IMG/VR virus record: IMGVR_UViG_3300020201_000026
Location: 1-54,968 of that record
Strand: one strand, 5' to 3'
DNA length: 54,968 nt
Origin: a virus
Within the stretch, counting starts at the first letter, position 1; each line of letters begins with the position of its first letter. The translations under genes and the position numbers were made by a program. Below the pieces are notes generated by a model. The model did not search any database. It saw nothing but the letters and a program-made list of their open reading frames with translations, and had not been told where the DNA came from. This document shows, piece by piece, positions 11,782 to 47,600 of the stretch.

Positions 11782-11796
11782 CTAATAGATTATAAT

Positions 11797-12552: not shown

Positions 12553-12554
12553 AA

Positions 12555-14779: not shown

Positions 14780-14832
14780 GAGTATAGACAAGGCAGTTAT
14801 CAAAGACGTATCAGAAAAAAAAATAAAATTTT

Positions 14833-15066: not shown

Positions 15067-15074
15067 GATAAAAT

Positions 15075-15548: not shown

Positions 15549-15549
15549 T

Positions 15550-19705: not shown

Positions 19706-19706
19706 T

Positions 19707-20024: not shown

Positions 20025-20037
20025 TTCCTTTTTAAAA

Positions 20038-20379: not shown

Positions 20380-20381
20380 AT

Positions 20382-21066: not shown

Positions 21067-21067
21067 A

Positions 21068-22021: not shown

Positions 22022-22067
22022 ACTAAACAAAATATAACAAACACAAAACAAACACGTAATAACAGCT

Positions 22068-23516: not shown

Positions 23517-23548
23517 TTTTACCACCCCCAAATAAAACAATTAAAAAC

Positions 23549-24921: not shown

Positions 24922-24925
24922 AAAC

Positions 24926-25891: not shown

Positions 25892-25918
25892 CTATTTGGG
25901 GGTTTATTTCGTTGAATG

Positions 25919-25947
25919 TGGAGTACGTTGTACTCCATTTTCATTTT
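25919..25947 (+). terminator. Intrinsic terminator inside the structural operon
   Basis: Perfect 8-bp stem TGGAGTAC/GTACTCCA with a 3-nt loop, followed by TTTTCATTTT. It lies 28 bp after the stop of the 321-aa gene, in the only larger spacer after the capsid gene. Partial termination here would give more head than tail mRNA. Confidence 0.75.
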
Positions 25948-25953
25948 ATACAC

Positions 25954-27281: not shown

Positions 27282-27807
27282 CATAGACGCTCCTTTAGAC
27301 TACGTTATAGAACAAGTAGGACAGTGCCTTAGACTAATAGGAAAGAAGGCGTTCCTTTTAGAAACATCAACTATGTGTGTTGTTAATGGGCAAATAAAAC
27401 TACCCTGCTATGTGGACAGAGTAGACATGGTAAGATTGAAAAACCAAAGCATTCCTTTTAGGTTTAAAGGGACAAGCACTGTTACATTCAACAGTATCTT
27501 CAACAAAGAGGAAGTAGAAGTAACATACTACGTTTATCAAAACGACGAGAACGGATTCCCTTTAATAGCTACAGAAGAGGAGTATTATGCCTGTTACCAC
27601 TGGGTCTTGTACCAGCATTTCCTACGTTTGTTTGCCAAAGGACTGGGACAAGAAGACAAGCTACAGTACTTTGAAAACTTGAAGAACCGATACATATTAC
27701 AAGCAAAAGCGGTAATGACCAACAGCGAGCTACAAGGAGTAGTGGACATACTTTACAGCACTTATAACAGGACACAGAGATATGGAAACAGCCCAAAACA
27801 CCGCTAA
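27205..27807 (+). CDS. Putative tail ring/adaptor protein, 200 aa
   Basis: Not identified by motif. Layout resembles T7 gp11-like/crAss ring proteins: helical N-terminus, a beta core (Q-I-K-L-P-C-Y-V-D-R-V-D-M-V-R, then P-F-R-F-K-G) and a long helical end (Y-Y-A-C-Y-H-W-V-L-Y-Q-H-F-L-R-L-F). It directly precedes the nozzle gene, as such ring proteins usually do. Confidence 0.6.
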   Translation: MEISQYSFQDNLNLPRILDSLRRDFDIDAPLDYVIEQVGQCLRLIGKKAFLLETSTMCVVNGQIKLPCYVDRVDMVRLKNQSIPFRFKGTSTVTFNSIFNKEEVEVTYYVYQNDENGFPLIATEEEYYACYHWVLYQHFLRLFAKGLGQEDKLQYFENLKNRYILQAKAVMTNSELQGVVDILYSTYNRTQRYGNSPKHR

Positions 27808-30800
27808 TAAAGGACTGTCAATGGACTTAGACGAGTACATAAGTCTAAATGACACTTTGACTTTTGCACAAAACCTACGCCTGCTGTCTCAGTCAGACAA
27901 CAGCTACGTTATGCAGAACTTAGAAGGCAACGAGGAGTCCTTTGTGCTAACACGAGGGTTTCAGCCAATTGGGGTGGTAACAGACAACAGAGTGTCATAC
28001 ATTATATCCCATAACCCAACAACGAGACAAGGAGAAATAGGGACATACCCCTCCCCTAACTTCGGCACGAGGATATACGAAGAGGACTTTGATGTCAGTC
28101 CCTTTTACGAGTTTGACTTGTTCCCTGACAACCACCGCTATTACTATGCGGCGTACCTTGTAGGAGTGGGATACCCTGTTTCAATGGTGAACGAGTATCA
28201 CCCTCTGATGACGATGAAGTACGGGAGTAACAACAGATACCCTTTGAGAAGCAAGCTGTTTAACTTTAACCTGAACAATCCTATCGCAAATGAGATTGTA
28301 GCCAAGCTGTCGTATGACTACTCCTATGGTTTGTATTTCACAGACAACCTAAACCCTATCCGTAGTGTGAACGGCAGTGTGGTATATAAAGACGGGGCTT
28401 ACTCTATTAACGCTCGCACATACACAGAGCAGGACTTTTCAACTGAGCTGAACCTAATACTCAACACTTTAAAATACACCTCCATAGCTCTACAAGACGT
28501 TGCGGCAGGAGGACGGTTGAAGTTTGGGAACTACATATACTATTTAAAGTACAAGACGCAAGACTCTAACACTACCTCTGTCATAGCACAGTCTTCGTTA
28601 GTCAGTGTTTTTAGAACTACGACAGGAGGAAGTAACGGCAATGTTTCATATGGAGGAAGTTCTGTTATAGGACAGAACTCTTCATTGGGTCAGTCTTTTA
28701 CAGACATAACAACGCCTAATCAAGTCATACTGTTTGTATCAGATATAGACCCCTCCTACACTTCTTTTAGGCTTATAGTAGAGTACAGTACAGGGGACGA
28801 CATAGCTACACAGGAGTTTTATGAAATAGACCAAGACTTTCCTATCACAAGCACAACCCAATACATTTCTCACACTGGCTTTGAGAACACTCTTGCTGTT
28901 TCAACTACTTCTATAAGCAGTGCGTACTACTCTTCCTTTTTAGCTAAGTCAATTACTCAATTAGACGGAAGGCTGTTTGCCACAAACATAAAGATAACCT
29001 CTCAGAACCACGCCTTATACACTAAGTTTGCAAACGCTTTTGTGTTAGAAGCAGTTGAAGTTTCAGCAGGGACACCTACTATAATGGCAGGGGACGTTTT
29101 AAACTATAGCCAAACGGGCTACCACAAGCCTCTAACCATATACAATAGCTTGGGCTATTGGTGGGAGGAGACATATGCTTTTGGAATAGTCTTTAAGCTC
29201 AAAGACGGAAGTGAAACCCAAGCCTACTTCCCAACAGGATACGACTACTTATCAACCACTCCTTTAACCAGCGTTAATAAAAAAGGAATAATAAGAACCC
29301 CTAAGAAGCCTGAGACGCTTGAGCTAACCACTGTGCGAATAGATGTTAGGTTAGAGTCCACTATGTTTGGCAATCTGACAATAGCAGAGAAAAACGAACT
29401 AAAAGAAAACATAATAGGCTGCAAGATAGTAAGAGCAGATAGAAACAGAGACGCAATAGCACAAGGGGTAGTCTGTACTACTTCTTCTGTGCCAGCAGGC
29501 GACTACAGTGTTACAGAACTAAGCTGGTTAGGGGTTGTTAGTTGGGGTAGCTCCCTTGACAAGAACAACAGCAATCAGTGGACTACTTATCAAAACGCAA
29601 CAGACAGAAGAGTAATCCCTGCTCCAAGAGGACACACAGAAACAGAATGGAGAAGACACTCTGGGAACAGTGCAAAGTCCTCACAGGTAGGTTCTTATAT
29701 GAACATCTTAAAAGACGAACGCAGGTATGCCTTCTATTCCCCTGACTGCGACTTAAACAGGACTACAAGGAGCAGGTTAAACGATGTAACTTTGTCCGTA
29801 GTGCCAAAACACAGGTATCTTTCTGGGCGATACTCTAAACAAACTAACAGCTCATTTAGAACTGACTTTTTGTATTTTCCTTCTTCAATATACAATGAAA
29901 ACACCCCCGTCAAAAAAAACTGCAAGAGCTGGATAGTAGACACAGGAAGAGATATAACAGGAGGTTTATTTGCAAGCAACTTAAACTATCTGTCTAACTC
30001 TGTTGTAACAGGAAACAACAACAACTCAACGGCTTTAATCCACGTCAATCACGTTTTTGAAGGCTATGTAGGGCTTGTGCTTTCGGAAGACACTTTTCAA
30101 GGCAACCAGTTTGGGTTAAGGGACTTTGTGTTTCAGGACGGAGGAAATGAAAACCAGAGAGTAATCCAGTCTTTGACAATGGAACAAGACAGCACTTCCT
30201 CTCCTGACTTCACAGTTGTAAATATTTACGACACGGAACAACGGGCTAACTATCTTTCTCTCTACCCACAAGTAAACCTGCTACAATACAAGAGTGTTAC
30301 ACAAGGTTCGCTTTTTGATTGGAAAACCATATTGTTAGGGGCATTGCCCACAATACAATGTTTTAGAGGAGACTGCTTTGTAGGAGAGTTCTTTAAAAGA
30401 ATGTGGTATTGTAAAACAGGGGAAGGCTACACAGGAGTCGTTTTACAGATAATAACAGAAAACAACTCAAACCCTTACCTAAGAAACAGTGAGCTGGTAG
30501 ATATAAATGAGGGGCAACGAGTCGCCTTGCCAGAGGTTGAAATAGACAACAACAACTTAGTAGCGGCTACTACCAACTTTGCAAACGCGGATTGGAGATT
30601 AGACAGCCCTGTCAATGGGCAGTTGCTTTTGTTTACTCGCTACAACAAATCACCAGAAAGCAGAGGCTACAACAAAGGCTATAGCCACGTGTTGGGGGAA
30701 CAAAGAACTACGGCATTTGACACAACCCTGCCGTCAGTTAGCAACCACTTCCCTACCAGAGTGATATATAGCGAACAGCAAGTTGGATTGTCCTTCACAG

Positions 30801-31852
30801 ACTTTTACAGGCAGATAGGACTGCTAAACACACAAGACTACCCTATTGAACTTGGGGAAGCTTCGGATATATGCTCCTTAGGCTTTAGCCTGTACCTGAC
30901 ACAGGAGTTTGGGGTGTCTAAGCTCCCTTATAAAGAAAGAGTCCCTATATCAACAGAAGGACAGGTGTTTGTAAGTGGAACGGGAGTACTCACTCCATAC
31001 AGTCAGCTGCTTTCTAAAATAGGCTCACAGCACACTCACTCAGTTATTTCAACAGACAATGCTATATACGGTATAGATGTCAATAGAAGAAAGCTATGGG
31101 CTATTGTAGGGGACACAGTGAAGGCTATTTCCGATGATGTTGTAAGCTCCTTTCTCAGAAGCAACGAAGGCACAGACAGAATAGGAGGATACAATTTTCT
31201 AAGGGACTTAGAAGGGAGATACCACGTAAGAACTGTCTGGGACAAAAGGCAAAACGAGGTTATGTTTGTTTTCTACAGAAGCACCGTCCCTTTGTCAAAC
31301 TACATGGATACCTTCACTCTCTGTTACAGCGAAAAGCTACAAGTGTTTATGTCTTATTACACTTATAGCCCTTCTATTATGTGGAACGTCAGTGATGTGT
31401 TGTTCTCTTTTCCTTCTTCGGAAGTTAAACAGTACGATAAATTAGAAGGGTACAAGCACAATGGAGGAGGCTACAACAACTTCTACGGGGGAAGCCTGCC
31501 TACTATAATGGAGATAGTAGTGAACGACAATGTGGCATACAGCAAAGTGTTTGACAATCACTCTGTGATAGGAAACAACATCTACCCTACGGAAATAGAG
31601 TGGAACACTGAAAACCAAACGGCGAAAAGGGATATCTCGTGGTTGCTAAAAAGGAAAAGAGTAAGGCAAGAGGAGAATCGCGTTTCAATAGTCATAGGCA
31701 GTAGCGACACAGACAAAGGGGAAGACTACAACCATAGCCGAGTCAATTCTCGTATAAGAGATAAATACGTAAAGGTGAGGTTCACATACAACGCAATAAA
31801 AAAACTAAGAGTACAATCGTTTCTAACTAAATACAGAATGTCAAATGTGTAA
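27782..31852 (+). CDS. Tail stabilisation/nozzle protein
   Basis: 1,356 aa. The N-terminus N-K-G-L-S-M-D-L-D, followed by L-R-L-L, N-L-E-G-N-E-E-S, G-F-Q-P-I-G-V-V and I-I-S-H-N-P-T-T-R-Q-G-E-I-G-T, matches the start of crAss-like stabilisation proteins (K-G-L-N-x-D, then I-G and N-x-T-T-x-x-E-I-G). These form the tail nozzle, comparable to P22 gp10 or T7 gp12. The remainder is beta-rich, Asn/Ser/Thr-rich. It overlaps neighbours by 26 and 8 bp. Confidence 0.8.
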   Translation: METAQNTANKGLSMDLDEYISLNDTLTFAQNLRLLSQSDNSYVMQNLEGNEESFVLTRGFQPIGVVTDNRVSYIISHNPTTRQGEIGTYPSPNFGTRIYEEDFDVSPFYEFDLFPDNHRYYYAAYLVGVGYPVSMVNEYHPLMTMKYGSNNRYPLRSKLFNFNLNNPIANEIVAKLSYDYSYGLYFTDNLNPIRSVNGSVVYKDGAYSINARTYTEQDFSTELNLILNTLKYTSIALQDVAAGGRLKFGNYIYYLKYKTQDSNTTSVIAQSSLVSVFRTTTGGSNGNVSYGGSSVIGQNSSLGQSFTDITTPNQVILFVSDIDPSYTSFRLIVEYSTGDDIATQEFYEIDQDFPITSTTQYISHTGFENTLAVSTTSISSAYYSSFLAKSITQLDGRLFATNIKITSQNHALYTKFANAFVLEAVEVSAGTPTIMAGDVLNYSQTGYHKPLTIYNSLGYWWEETYAFGIVFKLKDGSETQAYFPTGYDYLSTTPLTSVNKKGIIRTPKKPETLELTTVRIDVRLESTMFGNLTIAEKNELKENIIGCKIVRADRNRDAIAQGVVCTTSSVPAGDYSVTELSWLGVVSWGSSLDKNNSNQWTTYQNATDRRVIPAPRGHTETEWRRHSGNSAKSSQVGSYMNILKDERRYAFYSPDCDLNRTTRSRLNDVTLSVVPKHRYLSGRYSKQTNSSFRTDFLYFPSSIYNENTPVKKNCKSWIVDTGRDITGGLFASNLNYLSNSVVTGNNNNSTALIHVNHVFEGYVGLVLSEDTFQGNQFGLRDFVFQDGGNENQRVIQSLTMEQDSTSSPDFTVVNIYDTEQRANYLSLYPQVNLLQYKSVTQGSLFDWKTILLGALPTIQCFRGDCFVGEFFKRMWYCKTGEGYTGVVLQIITENNSNPYLRNSELVDINEGQRVALPEVEIDNNNLVAATTNFANADWRLDSPVNGQLLLFTRYNKSPESRGYNKGYSHVLGEQRTTAFDTTLPSVSNHFPTRVIYSEQQVGLSFTDFYRQIGLLNTQDYPIELGEASDICSLGFSLYLTQEFGVSKLPYKERVPISTEGQVFVSGTGVLTPYSQLLSKIGSQHTHSVISTDNAIYGIDVNRRKLWAIVGDTVKAISDDVVSSFLRSNEGTDRIGGYNFLRDLEGRYHVRTVWDKRQNEVMFVFYRSTVPLSNYMDTFTLCYSEKLQVFMSYYTYSPSIMWNVSDVLFSFPSSEVKQYDKLEGYKHNGGGYNNFYGGSLPTIMEIVVNDNVAYSKVFDNHSVIGNNIYPTEIEWNTENQTAKRDISWLLKRKRVRQEENRVSIVIGSSDTDKGEDYNHSRVNSRIRDKYVKVRFTYNAIKKLRVQSFLTKYRMSNV

Positions 31853-32879
31853 AGAATGTGATAAAAAAAGACTTGTCAGACAACGCGTCTTTCAAAAAGG
31901 GGGGTCTGTTTCTACAATGGGCTACAAAGACAACTCCCCGTATAGAAACGCCCCTTCTCTGATGATAGATAGCCCGAACGGCACAATAACAATGGACGGG
32001 GTATCCAAAGACCTAATAGGCATAGACGAGTACGGGAATAGGAAAGTGATGAAGGCTAATAGTGGGGAGTACCGTTTTAAAGGCAGCAAGGTAAAGGAAA
32101 TACCAATCGCTCAGGCAGGCGGAGAGCTAAGTGAGGGAATGTCTGGAAACCTATTAGGAGGAATACAAGGAGGCGTAGGTCTATTGTCAGACGGGGTGGA
32201 CTACCTTTCTAACAAGAACACAATGAACAATCCGCAAAAAGGAAAGTCGCTTGGCTCTATGATAGGCGGAGGCTTAGGATTAGCCTCAATGGCTTTTGGC
32301 GTCCCTCCAACAGTAGGAATGGCGATAGGCAGCAAGTTAGGAGGGGCAGTAGGCGGAGTAGTAGGAAACAAAATATTAGAAAAACCAGTATTACAAACAG
32401 TAAACACAGTAGGAATCCCAAAAGCTAAAACAGGAGGCTTATTAAACCAAAGAAACATGAACTTCAGAGAAAAGTACAACGACTACCAAAGCGGTGGGGC
32501 ATTGACAAAGAATTATCAAGGCGGCGGCTTAGTGTCAGGAGAAGGGGCTATGCCTCATAGTCAGGGGGGTGTTCCCACTGTAGACGAAACAGGACAGCAA
32601 ATAGCAGAAGTAGAAGGGGGAGAACGCATCTTCTCAGTAGAGGACACTGCCCAAATTGAACAGATGGTTCAAGAATACAGCCAGACAAATTCACCAGAGC
32701 TGGCTCAACAAGGCTGGGACTTTGTGGTACAGGCTATTATGAAACAGGAGCAGGTGAATCCTTCTGAAACGGGGGTAGCAGGAGATACCTCTATGCAACA
32801 ACCGATGATGGAGAAAGGCGGAAAGTTCTTGTCTAAAAAAGGGCTATTTAACTATTGGAAAAACGATGACGAAGAATAA
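31845..32879 (+). CDS. crAss-type virion protein with Gly-rich hydrophobic core, 344 aa
   Basis: N-terminal zinc-like C-K-E-C, then F-Q-K-G-G (17-21), Y-R-F-K-G and E-I-P-x-A-Q, followed by a Gly-rich hydrophobic region (about 115-175, G-G-G-L-G-L-A-S-M-A-F-G) and E-V-E-G-G-E-R-I-F-S. This modular pattern (F-Q-x-G-G, then V-E-G-G-E) is common in virion proteins of crAss-like phages. A membrane-active or ejected role is possible. Confidence 0.65.
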   Translation: MCKECDKKRLVRQRVFQKGGSVSTMGYKDNSPYRNAPSLMIDSPNGTITMDGVSKDLIGIDEYGNRKVMKANSGEYRFKGSKVKEIPIAQAGGELSEGMSGNLLGGIQGGVGLLSDGVDYLSNKNTMNNPQKGKSLGSMIGGGLGLASMAFGVPPTVGMAIGSKLGGAVGGVVGNKILEKPVLQTVNTVGIPKAKTGGLLNQRNMNFREKYNDYQSGGALTKNYQGGGLVSGEGAMPHSQGGVPTVDETGQQIAEVEGGERIFSVEDTAQIEQMVQEYSQTNSPELAQQGWDFVVQAIMKQEQVNPSETGVAGDTSMQQPMMEKGGKFLSKKGLFNYWKNDDEE

Positions 32880-34128: not shown

Positions 34129-34352
34129 TATTAAACACGACAACAGGCGGCTTCATAGACTGGCTGAAAGAAAAAGACGAGCCTTTATGTATAAACACAA
34201 AGGCTCTTTCTATTATATACAAAACCAGAAAGCCGTTTGCCCGTATTATAAAAGACCAGCACGACTTTTTAATACGCAAGGTATGCACTGTAAAGAGAGA
34301 CTTGTATAAGTTTGAACAAGACTACATAGACCAATTAAACAAGAACACATGA
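34125..34352 (+). CDS. Small protein with GTG start, 75 aa
   Basis: Not recognised. There is no ATG early in the frame; GTG at 34125 overlaps the preceding TGA (GTGA), and the end overlaps the next ATG (ATGA), so coupled translation on both sides supports it. Basic, helical, no membrane segment. Confidence 0.6.
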   Translation: MILNTTTGGFIDWLKEKDEPLCINTKALSIIYKTRKPFARIIKDQHDFLIRKVCTVKRDLYKFEQDYIDQLNKNT

Positions 34353-36535
34353 GCAAGAAGATAAAAATGTTCCAGCGAGGAGGACTCTTAAACAGAATAG
34401 GAAGAGGCGTGTCTACTGTTGGCAACTACGTAGGGGATAATGTCAAAGGGGCGTTTGGACAAGGCATCATAGGAAACGATAGAAACAACTATGACTATGC
34501 CAACACTGCCGATAGAGCAACCTCTTATGACGGCTTGCAATACGTGCCACAAGCTCCTGTCTCCCCTTTCTTAGCAGCGTATCAAAGCAGATACAGTGCA
34601 AAAAACTTTTATGACCCAGCTAAACACACTATGGACACTTCCGCTTTTGAGAAAGACCTCAAAACATACCATATTGACAAAGAAGGGTGGATGAGCAGAA
34701 AGGAAGCGGCAACAGCAGAAATAGCAGCGTATATTGCATTACACAACACAGACGAACAAATGATGGCTCAACTGCCAATGTTTATTGTGCAACAGAAAGA
34801 CAAGCTCACAAGGGACACACAAGGGTTAGTAAACACTTATGATGAAAACCAAACAGCATATAAAAAATATGTAAGTGAAGGAAAGCACGGGATACAATAC
34901 CGCGACAATGGAGAAAGCTATTTCACAAGAACAGAGAAGCAATTGGTAAACGGAGTAGAAAAAAATGTTAGAATAGTAAGACCACAGTCAGAAATATTAA
35001 ATCGTTTAGGAAGCCTAAGTGGCTGGAAGGCAGCAACTCCAAGAGACCTACAGGAAAGCTACGAGTACATAAACCCAGAAAACCCTCTTCACTCCAAAAA
35101 GATGATGGTCAATCTTAACGACAGAGACACTGCCCTTACGAGAATGCAAGCCTACTTTAAAGATGCAGAAACAAACAGCAAAGCAGAAGCTATAGCAGGG
35201 TCATACCGCCAAGCAAACATAGGGGGATACAACTCAGACATGGTTATATTCCATAACACTTCTTCAAAAGTAATAAATGAAAACAACTTCAAACAAATAG
35301 AAGAGGCAACTAAAGAAATAAACCAATTAGACCCTGTTATTAGAGACGGGTTAATGAGTGCTTTTTACTCAGAGATGAAAGCTATAATAAATGTCCCAGT
35401 GTATGACAAAGACGGAAATGCAATAACAACAGAAGAGAACGGAGTAAAAGGAGTAAAACTTCAAGCAACAAAGATTGAAGACATGAACAATGCTCAGTTG
35501 GCATTTGCCCAAAGTGCGTATATAGCAAATGCTATAATCAGAAGAGCAGCAGTTAATACAACGGAGAAAACCGACCAAAACAAAAGTTCTTCCGTAAATA
35601 TGGCAGCCATTGTTCACGGGGCTGGAAGTGGAGCAGCGTTATTAGAAAAACAAAAAAGGGATAGAGTAACAGACCTTTCAGACATGGTTGAAAACGGGCA
35701 AAAAGTACGAACTGCCGACACTATCGCCGCAAGATTGTTTGGGCAAGATTTTACAAAAAGATTTGGAGAAAACTCTGTGTGGCAAGTTAAAAAACCCTTA
35801 CTCAAAAGTGCCTCAACGGGGGCAACAATAACGGAAGATATAATTGGAAGCGCAGCAATAACATGGGACGGGACTATACTTAACAAAAACGGGATTAAAC
35901 TTGTATTAACGAAAGACGGAAAAAGAGTAGAAGGCAATGACATAACTAAAAACGTGCATCGTTTGGGGCAAAATATTATGACTACTACTGTTTATACAGA
36001 CGAATCAGGAGAGGAAATAAACTATAGCGACAAGATGTATGCTGTAATTCAAGCGGCTATAAGCGGAAATGAAAAAGCGAGAGAGGCATTGAAAGAACAT
36101 GGTATTAAAACACAACAAATAACAGGAATGGAAGTTTACGCTTTAAAGATGGGAGAAATAGGGACAACCATAAAAGGAGGGGTAATTATACCAAACAGTT
36201 CTACTGAAGGGCAAGAAATACTAAAACAACAGTTAGCCCTACACTCCTATTTAGGACCTACTCACGCATCAGTTGTAGCTCTTAAAGGGGCATTGACAGG
36301 AGACAGTGGTTCTACAGTTGTGCTTACAAGAGATTTCTTAACAGGAAAAACTCCCCCTTTATCTACCTATTTTGGAAGTGGTACTCTGTTTACCGACAAC
36401 AACAACGCAACTCTATACCCCACTGAAGAACAAGGAGTTATTCCTAAACGACAAGAGGGAGGAACAATACAACAACAAATCACTCTGCAACAACAAAACA
36501 CCCTGCCAGATATAACCTTAGACGATTTATACTAA
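34349..36535 (+). CDS. crAss-type virion protein, 728 aa
   Basis: Starts M-S-K-K-I-K-M-F-Q-R-G-G, the same F-Q-x-G-G tag as the 344-aa protein. Long helical middle; the C-terminus is Gln-rich (I-Q-Q-Q-I-T-L-Q-Q-Q-N). No enzyme motif seen. Likely part of the ejected cargo complex with the giants that follow. TAATG overlap with the next gene. Confidence 0.65.
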   Translation: MSKKIKMFQRGGLLNRIGRGVSTVGNYVGDNVKGAFGQGIIGNDRNNYDYANTADRATSYDGLQYVPQAPVSPFLAAYQSRYSAKNFYDPAKHTMDTSAFEKDLKTYHIDKEGWMSRKEAATAEIAAYIALHNTDEQMMAQLPMFIVQQKDKLTRDTQGLVNTYDENQTAYKKYVSEGKHGIQYRDNGESYFTRTEKQLVNGVEKNVRIVRPQSEILNRLGSLSGWKAATPRDLQESYEYINPENPLHSKKMMVNLNDRDTALTRMQAYFKDAETNSKAEAIAGSYRQANIGGYNSDMVIFHNTSSKVINENNFKQIEEATKEINQLDPVIRDGLMSAFYSEMKAIINVPVYDKDGNAITTEENGVKGVKLQATKIEDMNNAQLAFAQSAYIANAIIRRAAVNTTEKTDQNKSSSVNMAAIVHGAGSGAALLEKQKRDRVTDLSDMVENGQKVRTADTIAARLFGQDFTKRFGENSVWQVKKPLLKSASTGATITEDIIGSAAITWDGTILNKNGIKLVLTKDGKRVEGNDITKNVHRLGQNIMTTTVYTDESGEEINYSDKMYAVIQAAISGNEKAREALKEHGIKTQQITGMEVYALKMGEIGTTIKGGVIIPNSSTEGQEILKQQLALHSYLGPTHASVVALKGALTGDSGSTVVLTRDFLTGKTPPLSTYFGSGTLFTDNNNATLYPTEEQGVIPKRQEGGTIQQQITLQQQNTLPDITLDDLY

Positions 36536-39500
36536 TGGACGAATTAAAACTACCATACAACGTTAATGCTTTTAAAGGCGGAGATGAACAACCAATGATT
36601 CCTGTTCTTCCCGATACACCAGCATACGCAAATACCTTTGCCCCTGCAATAGAAGAAGAACAAAAGAACAAACACGATGTCCTAAGACAAGAATCACTAA
36701 ATGTAAATAGAAGTGTAGGATATGACGGGTCATACAAAGGCACTATATACTCCGACACAATGCGCAAAAGGCTGGAGGAAAGAGACGGAATGATAGGCTC
36801 TTTTATCTATCCAGATGCTTTAAAGACACCAGACTACGACTTCCGAATAGAAGACATAGAAAAATACTGGGCAAAAAAGGAGATACAAGACAAGTTCAAA
36901 AAGGAAGACGGCACAACAGATAGAAAAGCATTTGACAAATATTTTTTTGAAGTTCAGAAAACAATTAAAGGGTTACAAGACTTTCGTAGGTTTCAAGACG
37001 TAGTTCAAGAGTACGACCCTCTCAAAAACCTAACAGAAAGAGACTTAGAAGCAAGAAAAAGGTTTATGCCTACCCTTGTGCGTAAAACAAGCTACCGAGA
37101 TGAAAGTCTAACGCTACAACACCAACTGCTAAACGAAGGCAAGATAGTAGACCTAAAAGGAAAACCAGTAGCGTATAACGGAAACTACTTTGGGGCATCA
37201 GACAAAGGAGTTTCTTATTCTGAGTTAGTAGGCAGAGGCTTTCACGTAGCAGTACAAGACGGTGAGAAAGTATTAAAAGAAGGAGCTTGGGGAAAAGACT
37301 TAAGTTTAGAAGACCGACTCGGCTACTGGGGTGTTTCAAGAATGGACAAAGCAGACTGGGCAGACGCAACATACATTATAGGAGGGGTCTTTAACGGGCT
37401 TTTGTCTACTGTATCTAACGTAACCCAAATTGCACAAATAGCCTCTGAAGTAGTAGGGGCTTCTATGCGTTTGACAGGCATGAGCAAGGACAACGCAGAG
37501 TATGTGTCAGGCTACAACATGTTCACAGGGACTAACAACTTTGTAGAACGCGTTATGGTAAACAAGTACGAAGGAAATGACGGCAATCTAAGACACTACG
37601 GGGACATAATAGGGAATGCCACAGGACAGCTGGGGGGTATGTTTCTTACAGGAGGACTTGGTATAGGAACTTGGGCAGCAGCTAAAACACTTATGGCAAC
37701 TCGCAGCGCAGCTAAAATGGCACTGTTGGCTACTAACCTCATTAAACCTTCTACTGGTCCAGCGGTTGTAAACTTATTAAGGTCTGCTAATCCTTTATAC
37801 CAACGAGTTGGGCTTGCTCTTAATCTCGGGGTATTAGGGGCAAACCAAACAATGGACGCAATGAGGCATAGCGGCATAGACATAAAGTACAGAGGACCAA
37901 TGGGGATTGCAGCACTATCTGTCTTTGGCGTATTAGCACAAGTAGATGACTTTCTAATTGGCAAGAACTCTACACAATACTTTCTTAGCAAAGTGGGATT
38001 GTTAAACACTCCTGCTGTATTAGCTAAGAGCTTGGTGGATATGGTTACCCCTCTTAAAGGAGTATTGAACACTATGACAGAAAGAGAAGCCTCTAAGCTG
38101 TTTGTTTCATTAAGTGAAAAAGCGTACCAAAAAGTTATCCGCAGCCTTACAGGGAATGCAGGAGTTGGACAAGCAGTAAAAGAAACTTTCCAAGAGCTTA
38201 TGGAGGAAGGAGCAGACAAAGCACTGTTAAACTTATACAATCAACTTCCCGAGAAAACATACGGCAAAGTAAGAAAAGAACACGCAGCGGTCAAGTTTCA
38301 AAACTTTGTTGACGCAGCTGTTGGTGGTGCTGCTGGTGGTGCTATTTCTGGGACAGCCCAACGAATGATTCAAGGAGACACCTCTAAAGAAGGCGAGACA
38401 GTCTTAGATGTCATTGTAGACGAGTCTTCGTACAAGAAGACTATGGCTATGTTAGTGGAACAAGCTGACGACACTAACAGAAGCAAGAAATGGTTGTTTT
38501 CTTCTATTGACATAGATGACAAAGGGGAGTTGATTAAAAAAGGGGCATTGACAAAGTCTGCCAACGCAACAACAGCTGACTTGATGATACACAATATGAA
38601 AGTATTGAAAAAGACGTGGACGGCTTTTAAGACTACATACAAGGACAAAACAAAAAGCTATCAGGCGATGTCAAAAGAGTTTAAGGAGTTAATAGCCCAA
38701 AACCCTGACGACACCAATTTATTTAGCTTTTTAGCAGGCAAGAAGTTTAAAGACCAGTTGTCTAAGGTTAAAATAGGCGAAGAAGATGAAACCGCAAATA
38801 AGGAGATACAAGAAGGATTGAACACTATACTTGTAGACGATGCTGATAGTATAAAAAGAGAGTTCTTTGACAAAATGTTTTACTTAGCAAAAGGAGGGGA
38901 CACTACCTACTATGACGAGTATAACAGACTGAATGTTGATGTTATCACAAGAAACTTCAACAATATGCAAGAAAGGGTCGCTACTCTTCCTGCTATAACC
39001 GACCTTAATTCTACCCTTGACTTCTTAAATCAAACAGAAGGAGTAGCAGAAAAAGGACAAATAGAAAAAGCTACTTCTTTCATTGAACAAACGAATAAAC
39101 AGCTTTTAGAAGGAAGACAAACACTAACAGAGGAATCCGCCCTGAACAATACTCTCTCAGAAACAGTGGAAAACACTAAAGCAAAGGTAGAAGGGACATT
39201 AGGGAATGACGAAGAAGCAGACATAAACCCGTTTTTAGAAGATATTTTTTCAGCAGTAGATAAGTATTCCCATTTCTTAGCGTCAGAAGTTAGAAGGGCA
39301 ATTGAAGAAGAAGACATAGATGCAAAACTAAGTGTGATAGCATTAGTTGAAGATTTTTCGGCAAACAAAAAAATAGCTTTGGAAGCCCAAGTACAAGACG
39401 CTACTGAACAAGAACAAAAGCTGGCGGCTTACGGGAATAAGCTAAAGTCTTTAAAAGACATAACAGACCAATCGGTTATGGCAGATGTAAACAAAGAAAT

Positions 39501-42126
39501 ATACTTCTCCCCTATTGAGATAGACGGAGTACGATTTAACATAAAAGACATTGAAGCCAAAGCAAGCGAAGATGTTCAAGATAAAGACTTTGGAATATCC
39601 GAATATGCCGAAATGGAACAGGCGTTTCAGACATATAGGGCAATTAAACAACACCAGATACTCTACAACAACCTAACAGGAGCTAAAGTAAATGAATACC
39701 TAAAAGGGAATAAGACAGATTTAGTGCCTGCTATAACAGAAGAACAAGCAAAAGAATACACGGCATACCTTGCGAAAGTAGAAACAGACTTAGCCAAGCT
39801 AAAAGCGTTGGCAATAAGCAATGAAAGCAGTTTTGTTAAAAACAACTTTAACAGTTCAATAGGTGTGTTTTCAGATAAGCTCAGTAGAATCTCACGTATC
39901 ACTTTTGTAGACCCAAAAACAGAAGAGGATATAAAAGAGATACAATCTCAATTAGGGGCATACATAGATGCTACAGCAGCGTTAGACCACATGGACGATG
40001 TTTTAGTTGACGAGCTTTCTAAAATAGAAGCAGGGTTGTTTACAGCTATTTCAGCGATAGAAGAGTCAATATTTAAAAGCTACAAAACCAACACTGCTGA
40101 AGTAGACACCGCCCTAAAAAACATTGCCGTTAGGTTAGCTCAGGCTGACTCAGCTTCAGCCGCAGAAGAAAGAGACGCTAAGATAGAAGAGCTGCGTACT
40201 TTCAACTACCTGCATCAGATAGCTACAGTAAGCACAACGGAAACCAACAAACAACTTTGGCTGGCTATTGCCGAGTTAAACAAAATAGACAAGTACTTCT
40301 TTCCTTCTTTTGAGCAAATATACGCTTTACAAAGAATGTATATGAGTATTTCCGCTTCTCAAAAAGGGCAAGAAATGCTAATTGCAAACGGGGTAACAGA
40401 AGTAGCTAACACGGTGATTATCCTAAATGGCTTTAATGGAACAGGCAAAACTAAAACAATGTCTTTGTTTAAGACAATGGTTAATGGAAAGCTCAAGTAC
40501 TTTGCTCATAGTGAAAAACAAAACGAAAATCTTTCTAAACTGACAGCTGGAAAAGGTAGCTTTCTGTTTTCAGAGAAAGGTAAAAAAAACGACTACACTA
40601 TTGTCCCAAGCACAGACCCCACTGACACAGACAGTATTACCCCTACGGAAGAGTCAAAACTAAATAAAGCTTTATCAGGGTTGAAAAAAGGCGACGTGTT
40701 AGTTGTAGACGAGTACACTATGTCTGCAACAAAAGGGTTGAAGATGATATTAAAAGAGGCAAAGGACATCGGGTTTCATGTTGTGTTGATAGGCGACACT
40801 GGGCAAGCTACTACAAATGCTACCAGTTACACCCCAAGAGGCAATCTCACAAACGTTTTTGCTTTGACAGACTCTACTGTCCCTTTGAAGCTACAACAAA
40901 GGGGGGGCATTGTTACAATACGAAAGGCAACGGACTACTTCAGGGGACTGCAAGCGGTGTTAGAAACCCAGAAAGGCGTTGTGGAGGCAGAGCAAGTGGA
41001 TAAGATGCAGGAGCTAATTGAGAAGCTGCCTCCTTTTTATTATCAGGAACACACTGTGGAGGGTTTCACAGAAGGCATTTCGGTAGTAAGCACATTAGAA
41101 GAAGCAGAAGCACTTGTGAAAGGTAGAGAGGTTATTAAAATAGGGCATAGGGCAAGTGGGGACACTATGAGTGTTATGACGGCTCAAGGGTCTGAGGCGG
41201 AAGTAGTAATAATTGACTTGGGTACTTCTTTGACGAATGGAGAAATAAATGTTTTAGATTCAATCCCCTTTTACTTTTCTGTATCAGAACACTTTAAAAA
41301 GCTACTGTCTGCTTCTGGCAGGGCAAAGACGCATTTGATTATTATACAACCTGCTAATGACTTGTTGCAGGGCAAGTTCAAAAAGGTATCTGGGAAGGTT
41401 TCTGAGTTTAGTGAAAAGGAAGAAACGAGAAAGACCTTACACGAAAAGGGGACTTCGGCATTTGAGTCTTACAATACAGTTCCTGTTGTTTCTGCTACAC
41501 CTGTTGTTGCTCCTGTTGTTTCTGCTACACCTGTTGTTGATACAGATACTGATACAGATACAGATACAGATACTGAAGCTGATACTGAAGCTGATACTGA
41601 AGCTGATGCCTCTAACAACAATTTGTTTTTGGCAGGAGTGAGGCAACTGTTAGACGCGTATAAAGGGCGCATTACCTACCCTGTTACAGACTTCGTTATA
41701 AACGTAGACAACACGGTTACTATTATGCTTAGAGGATTAGAAGAACAAACAATAGATATAAACGCCTCTTTTATTGAGGCGTTAAGAAAGACCACTGAGG
41801 TTATCTCCTGTTCTTTATTGACAACAGAAGGAGGGCTTGATTCCAAGACGGCAGTAGAAGTCTACACTGATTTAACTGGAAACACAATAATCATAGGAGC
41901 AGACGGGACTATAGACGCAAACAGTGATATGTACTATGTAATAAACAACATCGCACACACACATGAAAACGGAGGCTTTAGAGAAGTGTTAGATGCTGAC
42001 GGAAAAGCTTTTGAAATAGACGACACCGCAACGGACAACTATGACAAAATTGCAAAATGCACGGTTGTTGGAACAAAACCCCCAGAAGGAAAAGGAAACA
42101 GAAACGAAAGCAAATTAAAACTATAA
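36535..42126 (+). CDS. Giant virion protein with SF1 helicase domain, 1,863 aa
   Basis: The first 1,280 residues are helical, with Gly/Ala-rich hydrophobic stretches (about 280-480 and 590-620) suited to membrane passage. A complete SF1 helicase follows: I G-F-N-G-T-G-K-T (1299-1306), II V-V-D-E-Y (D1392, E1393), III G-D-T-G-Q (1420-1424), V T-A-Q-G-S-E (1549-1554) and VI S-A-S-G-R-A-K-T-H (from 1592), closest to the RecD/TraI/Dda group. Then come a Val/Thr/Pro linker, a D-T repeat and a C-terminal domain. It is probably ejected with the DNA and may unwind it or move it into the cell. Confidence 0.8.
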   Translation: MDELKLPYNVNAFKGGDEQPMIPVLPDTPAYANTFAPAIEEEQKNKHDVLRQESLNVNRSVGYDGSYKGTIYSDTMRKRLEERDGMIGSFIYPDALKTPDYDFRIEDIEKYWAKKEIQDKFKKEDGTTDRKAFDKYFFEVQKTIKGLQDFRRFQDVVQEYDPLKNLTERDLEARKRFMPTLVRKTSYRDESLTLQHQLLNEGKIVDLKGKPVAYNGNYFGASDKGVSYSELVGRGFHVAVQDGEKVLKEGAWGKDLSLEDRLGYWGVSRMDKADWADATYIIGGVFNGLLSTVSNVTQIAQIASEVVGASMRLTGMSKDNAEYVSGYNMFTGTNNFVERVMVNKYEGNDGNLRHYGDIIGNATGQLGGMFLTGGLGIGTWAAAKTLMATRSAAKMALLATNLIKPSTGPAVVNLLRSANPLYQRVGLALNLGVLGANQTMDAMRHSGIDIKYRGPMGIAALSVFGVLAQVDDFLIGKNSTQYFLSKVGLLNTPAVLAKSLVDMVTPLKGVLNTMTEREASKLFVSLSEKAYQKVIRSLTGNAGVGQAVKETFQELMEEGADKALLNLYNQLPEKTYGKVRKEHAAVKFQNFVDAAVGGAAGGAISGTAQRMIQGDTSKEGETVLDVIVDESSYKKTMAMLVEQADDTNRSKKWLFSSIDIDDKGELIKKGALTKSANATTADLMIHNMKVLKKTWTAFKTTYKDKTKSYQAMSKEFKELIAQNPDDTNLFSFLAGKKFKDQLSKVKIGEEDETANKEIQEGLNTILVDDADSIKREFFDKMFYLAKGGDTTYYDEYNRLNVDVITRNFNNMQERVATLPAITDLNSTLDFLNQTEGVAEKGQIEKATSFIEQTNKQLLEGRQTLTEESALNNTLSETVENTKAKVEGTLGNDEEADINPFLEDIFSAVDKYSHFLASEVRRAIEEEDIDAKLSVIALVEDFSANKKIALEAQVQDATEQEQKLAAYGNKLKSLKDITDQSVMADVNKEIYFSPIEIDGVRFNIKDIEAKASEDVQDKDFGISEYAEMEQAFQTYRAIKQHQILYNNLTGAKVNEYLKGNKTDLVPAITEEQAKEYTAYLAKVETDLAKLKALAISNESSFVKNNFNSSIGVFSDKLSRISRITFVDPKTEEDIKEIQSQLGAYIDATAALDHMDDVLVDELSKIEAGLFTAISAIEESIFKSYKTNTAEVDTALKNIAVRLAQADSASAAEERDAKIEELRTFNYLHQIATVSTTETNKQLWLAIAELNKIDKYFFPSFEQIYALQRMYMSISASQKGQEMLIANGVTEVANTVIILNGFNGTGKTKTMSLFKTMVNGKLKYFAHSEKQNENLSKLTAGKGSFLFSEKGKKNDYTIVPSTDPTDTDSITPTEESKLNKALSGLKKGDVLVVDEYTMSATKGLKMILKEAKDIGFHVVLIGDTGQATTNATSYTPRGNLTNVFALTDSTVPLKLQQRGGIVTIRKATDYFRGLQAVLETQKGVVEAEQVDKMQELIEKLPPFYYQEHTVEGFTEGISVVSTLEEAEALVKGREVIKIGHRASGDTMSVMTAQGSEAEVVIIDLGTSLTNGEINVLDSIPFYFSVSEHFKKLLSASGRAKTHLIIIQPANDLLQGKFKKVSGKVSEFSEKEETRKTLHEKGTSAFESYNTVPVVSATPVVAPVVSATPVVDTDTDTDTDTDTEADTEADTEADASNNNLFLAGVRQLLDAYKGRITYPVTDFVINVDNTVTIMLRGLEEQTIDINASFIEALRKTTEVISCSLLTTEGGLDSKTAVEVYTDLTGNTIIIGADGTIDANSDMYYVINNIAHTHENGGFREVLDADGKAFEIDDTATDNYDKIAKCTVVGTKPPEGKGNRNESKLKL
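41481..41607. repeat. In-frame tandem repeats encoding a flexible linker
   Basis: A 30-bp unit (encoding P-V-V-S-A-T-P-V-V plus A/D) occurs twice (41481-41510 and 41511-41539), followed by GATACN-type repeats encoding D-T-D-T and three copies of a 12-bp unit encoding D-T-E-A (41569-41604). They join the helicase to the C-terminal domain. Copy number probably varies between strains. Confidence 0.9.
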
Positions 42127-42129: not shown

Positions 42130-44664
42130 ATGGCTAATTGTAGCATAAAACCACAAGTCCAAGAAAGTATTAAAAGAGCAACACACGTAAAAAACATCTT
42201 AGAAGGACAGATAGCGTCAGACAGTGTAGATTTTACAAACCTGCTTATCGCTTTTGCCGCTTACGGGTTTCCCTCATTAGAAGGTCGCGTGAAGATAGAG
42301 TCAAAATACGCAAGTTCTTTTTACTTACCTGGAATGATAGACGATATACAAGTCTCAACAGGGGCAACTTTTGCAAAGGTTAAAGATTTCCTCAATAGCG
42401 AAGACCCAAGAGCGATAAAACTCCTTGAAAAATCAGATGCTTTTTACGACCACCTTAAAGCTTTCAACAACAAGGACGACATAGAGTTGTTTGAGAAGAT
42501 AAAGAACTGGATAGCTTTAAACCGCACAGGGGTTACAACCATTGTCCCTGTTGATTATGCAGACGCAGATATCATAGTGCAGCAACCACTTGATTTTACA
42601 AGCAGAGTGCAAATGATGAGCCACATCATAGACACTATTGAAGACTCTACTTTAAGAGCTAAGGCAGCAGTGTTCCTTGACTATATAAGCACAGGGAACA
42701 TTAATGCCCTAATAGACAAGGAACAAGCCACAGGCACTGACTTTGTAAGTAAACTGTCTAATGCTGTGAAGAACCAAACAAGAGTCCCCGTACAAGTGAG
42801 AACAGAGCTTGTTATGGAAGGAGGCATTACAGTTGCTAAACACAAGGTGTATATGGGAGATGAGCTAATAGGAACATTACAAGACCCTGCTCTGTTTCAA
42901 CACGCTAACACCAATGAACTCAAACAGACACACGACAAGGCTGTAGAGATGTGGGGACTTGAACACGTAGAAAAAAGATTAGCTGCGTTTGGCAATGCTA
43001 TTGCTGAATTACACCGAATCAAAACAGTCAGCTTGGAATTAGTCGGCTTAGGCAAAGGTAACTTCACACACAACAAAAAGAATACTTTTTTAACAGGTAT
43101 CACATTGTCAAGTCTTCAAACAGACGAATACAAAAGCAATTTGCCTGCTAACCTTGAAATAGGAAAAAAAGTACTAATAGACTGGTCTAAGTGGCGAATG
43201 ATAGCTGGAATAAAGATGTCCCAAAAAGAACGAAAAGAGCTATCTGGATTTGTTGAAAAAATAGGGGGCATAACTGAGTTAATGAACGCGACAGAAACTA
43301 CAGTACAAGATGTAGACATTGCTCTTTTAAAAAAGTACCAGCAGTACTACGAAGAAAACAAATCATACCTAAAGCCCTTTGTGGTTTATTCTTTTACAGG
43401 GCAGGACTTAGAACCCCCTACTATTACTCCTAACCAGTTAGTTTCTCAGTACTACGAAAACTTGTTGGAGTTTATGGATAAAAGAGGGCGGATAATGTTA
43501 GACACTCCGTCTTTTACTTTTTCCGAGCTAATGAAAAAGTTTAGCACGAACTCCCCTATTAAACAGTATATTGACGAGTTGCAAGAAAGCGATAAGGAAG
43601 TAGATAAAAACGTGAACAGAGCCAAGTTAGGCTTTGCGTTTGTTTCTTCAGCAAGCACCCACAAGACATTAGAGACAATGCAATCACTGGTAACCAGTAA
43701 CCGTATAAAGGTTTTCAATACTGACAAAGACGGGGTACATAGAAACTCTTTTGCAGTAGCTATGACAGCAGACGTAAATGGCGATTCTTCAAGCCCAAAG
43801 TCAATCTTGGAAATGCTTAAGGAAACAATAAAAGAAGGTAACTTTGACAGTAAACTTGGTCATTCATCAATTGGAGGAATCCTTAGTTCAGACGGTGCTT
43901 TTAGTCTAAAACAGGACGATGAGATATTAACCCATCTTTTTTCTTTTCTACCGCTGGTAAAAGTAGGTAAAAAATACAAACACGCTTTAGACTATTTGTT
44001 TCAAGAACTTGCTGATTTCAATGAAGACTATAAGAAGTTTTCTAATGAAACACTCAAAGGGGGCAAAAACATAACGGATTATTTGTTCAGTAAAAGGGCA
44101 TCTCCTGCAAACATAATCAACAGAATGGTCGTTATGAAAGTAGGGGGCAAAGAAACAAGCAACCCTATCTATGACGAGCAAGGGGTGTTTGTTACAGTAG
44201 CCAGAAGGATAGGAACAAAGGCAGAGGAAATATTTGAGATAGAAAAGGCTTTAAAACGGAACAATAAAGACGTTGAAATGAGGTATCAAGCTAATGCTCT
44301 TTTACAAAAGGACAGTGGCAAAGCGGCTATAAAAAACCAAAACAGTGTAGGGGGCTTTGCTATTGTGGAAAGTGCCAAAATGGCTAAGTTAGGAATAGAG
44401 TACACTGTTCCGTCAATCCCTACTGAACCAAACATTTTATTAAGCGTTAAAGAGAGTAACCCTGTGGCGGCTGAAAGAACTACAATGGAAACTTTTCAAA
44501 ACATAGTAGCCCACAAAGAGGTGTCTTCTACAATAAAAAAAGCAGTACAAGTATATATAGATATAAACGACACATCTCCTAAAGCTATTGCAGACGTTGA
44601 CGAACTTCTTTTAGAGGAGTTTGAAGACAGAGACCAAATCCCCCCACTTTGTAACGTTACATAA
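42130..44664 (+). CDS. Giant-block virion protein, 844 aa
   Basis: Not recognised. Helical and acidic, without signal peptide or clear catalytic motif. Lies between the helicase giant and the polymerase giant, three bases after the first and overlapping the second by one (TAATG). In other crAss-like phages this block encodes proteins co-ejected with the RNA polymerase; this may be a polymerase partner or scaffold. Confidence 0.65.
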   Translation: MANCSIKPQVQESIKRATHVKNILEGQIASDSVDFTNLLIAFAAYGFPSLEGRVKIESKYASSFYLPGMIDDIQVSTGATFAKVKDFLNSEDPRAIKLLEKSDAFYDHLKAFNNKDDIELFEKIKNWIALNRTGVTTIVPVDYADADIIVQQPLDFTSRVQMMSHIIDTIEDSTLRAKAAVFLDYISTGNINALIDKEQATGTDFVSKLSNAVKNQTRVPVQVRTELVMEGGITVAKHKVYMGDELIGTLQDPALFQHANTNELKQTHDKAVEMWGLEHVEKRLAAFGNAIAELHRIKTVSLELVGLGKGNFTHNKKNTFLTGITLSSLQTDEYKSNLPANLEIGKKVLIDWSKWRMIAGIKMSQKERKELSGFVEKIGGITELMNATETTVQDVDIALLKKYQQYYEENKSYLKPFVVYSFTGQDLEPPTITPNQLVSQYYENLLEFMDKRGRIMLDTPSFTFSELMKKFSTNSPIKQYIDELQESDKEVDKNVNRAKLGFAFVSSASTHKTLETMQSLVTSNRIKVFNTDKDGVHRNSFAVAMTADVNGDSSSPKSILEMLKETIKEGNFDSKLGHSSIGGILSSDGAFSLKQDDEILTHLFSFLPLVKVGKKYKHALDYLFQELADFNEDYKKFSNETLKGGKNITDYLFSKRASPANIINRMVVMKVGGKETSNPIYDEQGVFVTVARRIGTKAEEIFEIEKALKRNNKDVEMRYQANALLQKDSGKAAIKNQNSVGGFAIVESAKMAKLGIEYTVPSIPTEPNILLSVKESNPVAAERTTMETFQNIVAHKEVSSTIKKAVQVYIDINDTSPKAIADVDELLLEEFEDRDQIPPLCNVT

Positions 44665-47600
44665 TGAGTAAAATATCCTTTAACAACTGCAGCACCACTG
44701 CTCAAAAAATGGAGTTTTTAGAACAAGAAGGCAAAGCAACAAATACTCAGAACAGGGCAGTAATGCAAGAATACGTTGCTAAATACCACCCTGTAACGGT
44801 GTTGAAAACTACAGAGGCATATAAAAGCACTGTTACTGACGACCCTACAAATGCCCTTTTGTATTTTCCTAAAACAGATAACCCTGTTATAGAAGGAAAA
44901 GGACTGTCCATATACGAAGATGAAAATGGACTGTATATGTATGGTTATTCTAAAGAGATTGCAGACGCTAATGAGGCAGTTAAAAAAGACCCTGAAAAGG
45001 TTTATTTTAGCAACCTCCTAATGGAATCAGACATACTTACAGAAGGAGTAGTAAAAGAGATTAAAGAACAGTTCGTCCCTTTAAAAATAGGGGAAGAAGT
45101 AGACAAGAGACCTGTTAGCGAAGTAGTATATGAGATATCCGAAAAAGAACTAAACAACTATACCCAAACTGAAATATCTGGTTTTATACAACGCTTTAGA
45201 ACAGAAGTGTTTGACAGTGTTTTCAGATACAAAATAGGAAAATGGGAAGAGTTATACCGACTCAAAAAAGAAATCATAGACAAAGCCAAAGAAGGAATAA
45301 ATGACGATACAAAAAGCACACACTATTTTGTGTTTATGTCTAAGTACTTTGACATATTCTTAGAAAACGAGTTCAAAGATGTGTTCACAGTAGATAGAGA
45401 GAAGCAGGATTACAAAATAGCAGTTACAATAGAAGAAACCGAAACAGAAATAGACGAAGACGAAGAAGGAGACCACGAGTATTCAAAAAACCAACTGTTT
45501 GTTGAGAGCAATAAACCACTAAAAGTAACTGGTTTTATGAAGATACTCTTTGGTGCTTTGAAAGGGACAGACGGCAAAAGGTACACTTACCCTAACTATG
45601 TCATCGCTTTATCCGAACTACAAGCTACTACCCTAAAAGAGTTTAGAGAGAAGGTAGATGCCTCGCATAGCCCTGAAATAAAAATCATTAAAGAGTACCT
45701 GTACGGACTTAAAGGGATAATAGCGTCTTCTACAACAACACCAAACCCTCTAATAAAAGATGCCTTCTCTCCTATCGCCTCTAATATAGAAACAGCCCTG
45801 CAACAAATAGCAACTTCTAACAAGCCACAAATACACGCCAACATAATAAAGAAAGACAAAACAGAACAAGGCTTAGAGGTACTCTCTGTGTTTAGAACAC
45901 AAGGGCAAAAAGAAAGACTAAACTCTATTGTAAGTATTGTAAATGACAAAGACGTGCTTGCCCTTTTAAGAGCGCATACTGGGCTAAAGAAAAAGGCAGA
46001 AGACACTACAAAGACTGCTGAAGAACAAGCGGTAGCAAAAGAGCTATACAAAGAATCTATTGTCAATCTATCAAAAGTGTTAGGTATAATAAACAGCCCT
46101 GACGCAACAGTGTTGATAAATGAAATATCAGCTAAAGCAAGTAGTTCAAAAGATGACAACCCACAGAGGTTTAGCAGAAGCATCTCACAAGACAGCGACC
46201 TCATAACACTTATACAACAAGGTGAGGCTTTGCAAGCTAACAATACACTGACAGTTAGTGTAGACGGCAAGCAGGTATCTGTCTTACAGAGAAGCAATCA
46301 GCTAAACACATTGCCTGCTGTTTCAACAGAGTATGGAAAAACAGACACCTTCTCAGTAGGCACAGTTGTAGAAACAAACAGGTTCAAAGACGGCGACTTA
46401 GCAAGAGGGGTAGTCAGAATAGACAATACCGCATATCTACAGTCAGGGTACGTTTTAAACGGGTTCAAAATATCGTATGCTGGGTTCACTGATTTAGAAA
46501 TGCTGAAGACAGCGTTAGAGATGTTTAACAAAGGAAGAAACATTGCCCAAACTTCCTTTTTAATACAGACCATAACACAATCTGACCAATCAACTCCTGT
46601 TGCTACTCAAATTAGTTTTGGCTCAAGATTCTTTGAAAATGTGTCTTTAAACTTTAAAGATGAAAACGGAAAACCAATAGCGTTTGACAGTAGCAACAAT
46701 GCTCACTGGATAAAAGTCCTTAACCAACGCACTTTCAAAAACGAGTTAAACTATTGGGGACACACATTGCGTAACATGTTTGCCCACATAGGATTACCCC
46801 CATACATAACTCTATCTGAAATGGTAGAAGAGCTAAGTAAAGAAACGGCTATCCCAGAAGGAATATCTGTCAATCAACTCCAAGCCAGATTAGGTAGAAA
46901 CTACATAAGTGTTTCTAAAGACGGAAAAACATTTAGTCTTAACCCCGACTTAAAAAAATACCTCAACGCTCTTGACACACAAGAAGGGTTTACTTCTGAG
47001 TTAGACAAGATGTGGGAGGAAACCCTGTTAGTAATCAAAGACAGGTATGCCGCTGGTGTTTTTAGTGCCGATGAAACTGACCAGTTAAAACTAATGCACT
47101 ATCTACACGCTTATACAGACCGCGTGATTAACCCATTGCTGGTAGGCGATATGTTCTCCTATAAAGGCAACAACGTGTTTAAGAAGGTGGTAGACAGGTT
47201 TAAGAGGAGCAAGCAGTCAGGAGGCATAGGGTTAGCTGAAACAGCTTTCGGATTAGGAGAAACAGTTAGCACAATTGCCCTCACCTCCTTTTCAAGCAGC
47301 AAGTTGTTCAAAAACGATTTGCCTGATAGCAACACTGACACACGGATACATGATGTTTTTGGCAACGAGGTAAAAGACTTCAAGGCAGTAGACGGACAGT
47401 CTTTTATGTCCCCTTTACAAGCACGATTAATGAGAGAGTCATTCGGTGGGGACTTGCAAGACTACTTCAAGAACGGGCTTGACACTAAGACACTGATAAC
47501 AGGAATGCTGGGCAACCACACAATCAATATAAAAGACTCAACCCTGACTATCTCCCCAAACATTTACCGCATATCAACGCCTGTGCAGAAGGCAATATAC

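Follow-up and report, generated by a model that had tools for sequence, protein, structure and literature searches.

We analyzed a 54,968-bp IMG/VR record (IMGVR_UViG_3300020201_000026) from an uncultured crAss-like phage; the whole of this stretch is referred to here as the window. The contig belongs to Crassvirales: the Crassvirus major capsid protein (MCP), muzzle, TerL, portal, and a DxDxD polymerase giant were all found. TerL and portal are of the crAss type, the nearest named phages by MCP and TerL are only about 27 to 28% identical, and by sequence the phage is a member of a deep-branching crAss-like lineage. Scans with MCP, TerL, and portal returned nothing beyond a near-identical 13-kb fragment. 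This sister fragment (L002, 13.4 kb, from another assembly) is 99.5% identical to window positions 13845 to 27050, which supports the sequence of that stretch, and it ends before the genes of interest here. It differs from the window by an insertion of roughly 130 to 200 bp just after the capsid gene, with partial repeats of the MCP end. Elsewhere in the window are a perfect (TTTAGGG)x6.9 tandem repeat between ORFs at 5498 to 5545 (TTTAGGG is the plant-telomere unit) and a calcineurin-like phosphoesterase at 12758 to 13780, near a tRNA-Arg at 11709. The structural and cargo genes on which the analysis draws are as follows.

22068 to 23516, plus strand: Crassvirus major capsid protein (Pfam Crass_capsid, E=3.5e-45)
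27782 to 31852, plus strand: Crassvirus muzzle protein (Pfam crAss_MUZ, E=9.5e-45)
34349 to 36535, plus strand: P0002, a 728-aa cargo-type protein placed in the gene order as PhicrAss001 gp45/gp46
36535 to 42126, plus strand: P0001, a predicted helicase-bearing cargo protein of 1863 aa; intact ORF with an ATG start and homologous giants in 15 relatives
42130 to 44664, plus strand: P0003, 844 aa, the positional counterpart of the C-terminal ~1000 aa of the relatives' 2.7 to 3.2 kaa giant
44664 to 54956, plus strand: P0004, the virion RNA polymerase giant of 3430 aa, with DxDxD at residue 1464 and a zincin-like HExxH at residue 2176

The P0001 gene thus lies between a cargo gene, P0002, and the polymerase giant block. 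The P0002 stop overlaps the P0001 start (TAATG), and P0003 and P0004 overlap likewise, an arrangement suggestive of a single operon with translational coupling. P0004 is 30% identical to cr118_1 gp14 around the DxDxD motif (E=1e-7), and this motif lies 8.6 kb downstream of the Walker A motif of P0001, in agreement with the co-location of helicase and virion polymerase genes proposed in an earlier, sequence-only reading of the window. Within P0001 we mapped the following features, all on the plus strand.

36853 to 38346: N-terminal cargo module, residues 107 to 604, defined by hhalign against the N-termini of 15 relatives; conserved E550/E554/E557 and GGxxGG at 597 to 602
40252 to 41454: SF1 helicase domain, residues ~1240 to 1640 (AAA_30, E=1e-13; A2/A3 profiles; fold search)
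40429 to 40452: motif I (Walker A), GFNGTGKT, residues 1299 to 1306, with K1305; G and K invariant in 16/16
Residues 1324 to 1333: motif Ia-like segment
40702 to 40716: motif II (Walker B), VVDEY, residues 1390 to 1394, with D1392/E1393; invariant in 16/16
40789 to 40806: motif III, IGDTGQ, residues 1419 to 1424, with Q1424; G and Q invariant
40891 to 40908: motif IV region, LQQRGG, with R1456; R invariant in helicase alignment A3
41179 to 41202: motif V, TAQGSEAE, residues 1549 to 1556, with G1552/E1554; G and E invariant
41308 to 41328: motif VI, SASGRAK, residues 1592 to 1598, with R1596 (arginine finger); R invariant
41481 to 41607: low-complexity linker 3' of the helicase, with tandem repeats VPVVSAT and DTDTEAD (TRF and translation)

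The sequence-only reading had listed SF1 motifs in order within P0001, and this held: motifs I to VI were all found, in the correct order, between residues 1299 and 1598. Pfam AAA_30 covers residues 1278 to 1425 above the family cut-off (E=1e-13). Across P0001 and the 15 relatives described below, 13 helicase positions are invariant in 16/16 sequences, the catalytic residues among them, and these residues are kept even though the 16 helicases share only 15 to 20% identity. The description of the helicase as embedded was also accurate, as about 220 further residues follow it, beginning with the tandem-repeat linkers. A profile of the cargo-helicase family searched against the PDB matched Upf1/NAM7 best (E=1.4e-14), spanning both RecA-like domains; further matches were RecD (2.7e-8), SMUBP2, PIF1, nsp13, and Dda (4e-4), and we took matches to p97 and DEAD-box proteins as generic RecA/P-loop matches. 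Because of the AAA_30 match, the invariant catalytic residues, and the family profile match to Upf1/NAM7, we do not attribute the motifs to chance.

An AlphaFold model of the helicase, built from 14 sequences, was modest (pLDDT 51.7, pTM 0.52), with its second domain at low confidence. Foldseek with this model returned DSH9, RecD2, RecD, and Pif1 (E to 8e-8). A second structural comparison with the same modest model gave DSH9 (Z 17.1, rmsd 4.1, 269 aligned), Dda (Z 14.2 to 14.6), HelD (Z 14.2), and RecD2 (Z 13.4). HelD is an RNA-polymerase-bound SF1 protein; we set this match aside as functional evidence, as it stands among many SF1 matches. The outcome that had been named as refuting the assignment, a fold search that fails to return SF1 helicases, did not occur. 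We conclude from these comparisons that P0001 carries a predicted SF1 helicase domain with a complete motif set.

Searches with single proteins found no relatives: tblastn of P0001, or of P0004 residues 1 to 2076, against 50,697 phage records gave no match, nor did IMG/VR scans with P0001 or its helicase or a scan of the genome collection with P0004. The entry point was instead an alignment of just two sequences, P0004 and cr118_1 gp14, in the region of the polymerase DxDxD, which recovered 41 crAss-like loci from IMG/VR. A profile of the embedded helicase, run on the whole records of these 41 loci, matched strongly in 14 (of which G015 and G016, with the same family scores, are possibly one virus). 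We fetched 13 regions and read each with whichever code opens it (TGA as W or TAG as Q). All 13 contain one ORF of 2.7 to 3.2 kaa with a P-loop at residue ~1460 to 1750, and all 13 show the same order of a cargo-size ORF (~610 to 640 aa where complete), the helicase giant, and a giant with GSDxDID; intervening ORFs precede the last of these in L088 (a small one) and L084 (1858 aa). Two GenBank phage records share the arrangement, MT835470 with one 2967-aa ORF and MT835492 with a split one (1540 + 1555 aa). In total, homologs of the helicase-bearing protein occur in 13 IMG/VR and two GenBank records, as a single ORF in 14 and split in MT835492, always with the helicase at the equivalent position. 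A recognizable Crass capsid gene is present in seven helicase-bearing records besides the window, though one of the seven matches scores under the family cut-off. Walker A and DxDxD lie about 9.5 to 11 kb apart in the relatives checked.

In the window, the counterpart of the relatives' giant appears to be divided into two proteins, with the break following the helicase (1863 + 844 aa). We considered P0003 as the detached C-terminus, which its size and place fit; hhalign similarity to the relatives' C-termini is absent, so the equivalence is positional only.

Profile comparison aligned the P0001 helicase over its full length with those of the relatives (prob 97, E=1.1e-10). The N-terminal module gave a separate match (P0001 107 to 604 against relatives 38 to 620, prob 90, E=1.6e-6), with P0001 1003 to 1201 against relatives 1250 to 1449 as a second, weak collinear stretch, and reversed P0001 and other window proteins, run as controls in the same hhalign comparison, gave no match. 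The N-terminus and helicase of P0001 are therefore homologous to the relatives' giant in the same order. In a maximum-likelihood tree, a branch with support 100/100 separates the 16 cargo helicases from the replicative and polymerase-fused SF1 helicases, and the window helicase, itself long-branched, sits at the margin of the cargo side; L090 and L092 are near-identical in this tree. The tree left out L031 and L032, which by sequence resemble other P-loop ATPases and whose inclusion had scattered a first tree, and the short row L030. Taken alone, the first RecA domain of the window helicase is slightly closer to the polymerase-fused type (5.7e-10) than to the cargo type (5.2e-8), but the full-length helicase match together with the N-terminal match tips the balance to the cargo-helicase family. 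On the fusion, the emphasis of the sequence-only reading was misplaced. Given the same arrangement in 15 relatives, and a helicase in the cr118_1 gp14 giant considered next, we conclude from sequence comparison that the predicted helicase–cargo fusion is neither unique to this phage nor recent.

A second kind of fusion joins a helicase to the polymerase chain itself. In cr118_1 gp14 (4946 aa, "exonuclease V" in RefSeq), a DxDxD motif, a zincin-like motif, and a Dda-like helicase lie in one chain, and the RefSeq name is explained by the fused Dda/RecD-like helicase. This protein matches phrog_325 (E=5.8e-83); P0001 has no match to phrog_325 at E<=0.01. Similar fusions occur in a 98,826-bp IMG record and three further records, making five phages with cr118_1, and in one of these records the helicase is N-terminal to the polymerase motif. 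In the tree these helicases group with stand-alone SF1 helicases that are probably replicative, suggesting repeated capture; with a different, Dda/RecD-like helicase on the polymerase chain of five phages, helicases appear to have joined the block more than once. Scans of PhicrAss001, phi14:2, and DAC15 with AAA_30 gave no match at all, p-crAssphage has AAA_30 only in a stand-alone helicase, and most single-chain polymerase giants surveyed are without a helicase. The absence of a helicase from the block of many crAss-like phages argues that none is needed for virion polymerase function generally. The HExxH zincin-like motif shifts among cargo giants between phages, as the helicase does (P0004, window 51189 to 51209; PhicrAss001 gp47, residue 2157; cr118_1 gp14, residue 1734). 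At one further locus (L100, in G041), ORF 8301 to 18044 encodes a 3247-aa cargo giant with a zincin-like motif and an extra Walker A-like GTSGSGKS at residue 1313, adjoining a 1674-aa ORF that combines DxDxD with a fused helicase.

The N-terminal part of P0001 had been read as an internal virion protein. Its conserved columns comprise a glutamate cluster (E550/E554/E557) and the GGxxGG patch. The N-termini of other crAss giants, gp47 of PhicrAss001 and cr118_1 gp14 included, form a set that is partly BLAST-linked (gp47 to L049, E=8e-7, and to L060, E=5e-5), and the profile of this set matched the N-termini of the helicase-bearing giants (prob 82, E=1e-5, 329 columns); a reversed control gave no match. 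Compared directly, P0001 and the gp47-containing set gave no significant match. P0001 thus reaches a proven virion protein indirectly, via two remote steps through its relatives. Mass spectrometry of PhicrAss001 virions detected gp45, gp46, gp47, gp49, and gp50, and the PhicrAss001 genes run muzzle gp44, gp45, gp46, gp47, and polymerase genes (PMC10172136). The gene order of the window, which we also compared with cr118_1 and 13 IMG/VR loci, is the same. The cargo-module homology and gene order uphold the earlier reading in part, with the direct comparison to the gp47 set falling short of significance, and we conclude from gene order and remote homology that P0001 is probably a gp47-type virion cargo protein, packed and injected with the phage DNA.

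Alternatively, P0001 might be a late replication or packaging helicase that is merely located in the structural operon and is not injected. We consider this very unlikely. Its cargo status is predicted, and stand-alone SF1 helicases do serve replication in other crAss genomes; however, the covalent fusion to the cargo N-terminus is conserved, the homology chain leads to a proven virion protein, the gene is tightly linked to that of the virion polymerase, and the tree separates cargo helicases from stand-alone ones. Moreover, MT835470 and MT835492, which have the fused form, also encode a stand-alone SF1 helicase elsewhere.

The further suggestion that P0001 is of a membrane-penetrating type is at best tentative. 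Hydrophobicity analysis gave one marginal segment (457 to 475, Kyte–Doolittle mean 1.68), to be set beside the GGxxGG patch; the relatives' giants have weak hydrophobic segments near 250 to 290, and the N-terminal structure model of P0001 (pLDDT 36) was too poor for a fold search. A 344-aa protein encoded directly after the muzzle gene (31845 to 32879) has a weak glycine-zipper match (E=3e-4) and may be a better channel-protein candidate than P0001. These observations bear on the possibility that the helicase is a genome-entry motor, with the N-terminal module anchored at the channel and ATP hydrolysis reeling DNA into the cytoplasm. Such a role would suit a motor joined to a cargo module that conserves the glycine-rich GGxxGG patch and has relatives believed to leave before the DNA (PMC10172136). 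For P23-45, whose polymerase is fused to the tape measure, enzyme-coupled entry has been proposed (PMC10770324). Still, P0001 has no convincing membrane segment, and cr118_1-like phages carry the helicase at the distal end of the polymerase chain. SF1 helicases also usually track on single strands, whereas the DNA entering the cell is duplex, and we regard an entry motor as unlikely.

Multidomain giants that are injected and contain helicases are already known among polyvalent proteins (PMC5512222), and the zincin-like motif in the partner giant P0004 could be read in the same light, with the helicase as an injected counter-defense or DNA-protection factor against host nucleases or restriction. 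We judge this quite unlikely: Pfam scans found no LPD domain or other polyvalent-protein signature, and the constant pairing is with a polymerase gene rather than with effector domains.

The reading that we favor, by a little over even odds, is that P0001 is a gp47-type cargo protein with a working SF1 motor that acts on entering DNA together with the virion polymerase; packaging, ejection, ATPase or translocase activity, and the partnership are all predictions. In this proposal P0001 would probably be produced late, packed in the head alongside P0004, the virion RNA polymerase giant, and ejected into the host ahead of the DNA or together with it. Moving along the phage DNA as it arrives, the motor would then assist the co-injected polymerase in its first round of transcription, by opening or clearing DNA or by removing roadblocks or transcript hybrids; it might also draw DNA in. 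That helicases joined this block repeatedly speaks against an accident and for a function tied to the injected polymerase or to the incoming DNA. From the recurrence of the arrangement in over a dozen distant relatives, we suggest that injecting a helicase beside their own RNA polymerase is routine for these phages. More tentatively, at slightly less than an even chance, we propose that one crAss branch (large-genome, often recoded phages, plus the window lineage) injects an ancestrally fused helicase within a transcription machine packed in advance, and that other lineages rebuilt the partnership by fusing replicative-type helicases directly to the virion polymerase.

crAss-like phages are among the commonest gut viruses, and labels such as "RNA polymerase subunit" or "hypothetical" on their giants hide an enzyme. 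None of four tested giants of the helicase-bearing cargo kind had a match in PHROGs, one tested relative giant had none in NCBIfam, and P0001 had only a short partial TraA match in NCBIfam; routine annotation will therefore miss the helicase. That crAss virion cargo carries an injected enzyme is known; what appears to be new here is that the enzyme would be a helicase. The text of the literature we found, figures apart, holds no description of the embedded helicase of crAss cargo giants. In Yutin et al. 2021 (PMC7886860), the crAss cargo block consists of several large multidomain proteins, a figure legend lists an SF1 helicase among crAss genes, and Fig. 3 marks conserved domains, so prior notice is possible. 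The finding touches on how crAss virion RNA polymerases start on DNA whose entry into the cell is not yet complete; a conserved helicase, packed beforehand and adjacent or fused to the polymerase, would be a concrete, testable partner.

Among known systems, the closest is the "RNA polymerase-associated" virion cargo protein gp47 of PhicrAss001, which, like P0001, lies between C1/C2-type cargo and polymerase genes and has an N-terminal module related to that of P0001 through intermediates. It differs in having no helicase and in carrying HExxH near its own C-terminus; the window has this motif in P0004, its polymerase giant. The cr118_1 gp14 and Suoliviridae-type giants share with P0001 the SF1 helicase on a crAss cargo-block giant, but in gp14 the helicase is of the Dda/RecD type (phrog_325) and sits on the DxDxD chain itself, whereas the P0001 helicase is in a separate protein. 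The polyvalent proteins (for example phage P1 DarB, a methylase–SF2 helicase) are likewise giants with a helicase and predicted delivery to the host; they combine an SF2/SNF2 helicase with methylase and LPD domains (PMC5512222), whereas the LPD domains of Iyer 2017 have no Pfam match in the window and a single catalytic domain is recognized. With the SF1B enzymes Dda, RecD2, DSH9, and Upf1, the P0001 helicase has in common the motifs and a probable two-domain core at about 20% identity or less, but these are free enzymes, whereas the P0001 motor would be housed inside a cargo protein. Finally, the tape-measure-fused RNA polymerase gp96 of P23-45 and the N4 virion RNA polymerase are injected enzymes on a large virion protein, as proposed here for P0001; there the enzyme is a polymerase, where in P0001 it is a predicted helicase (PMC10770324).
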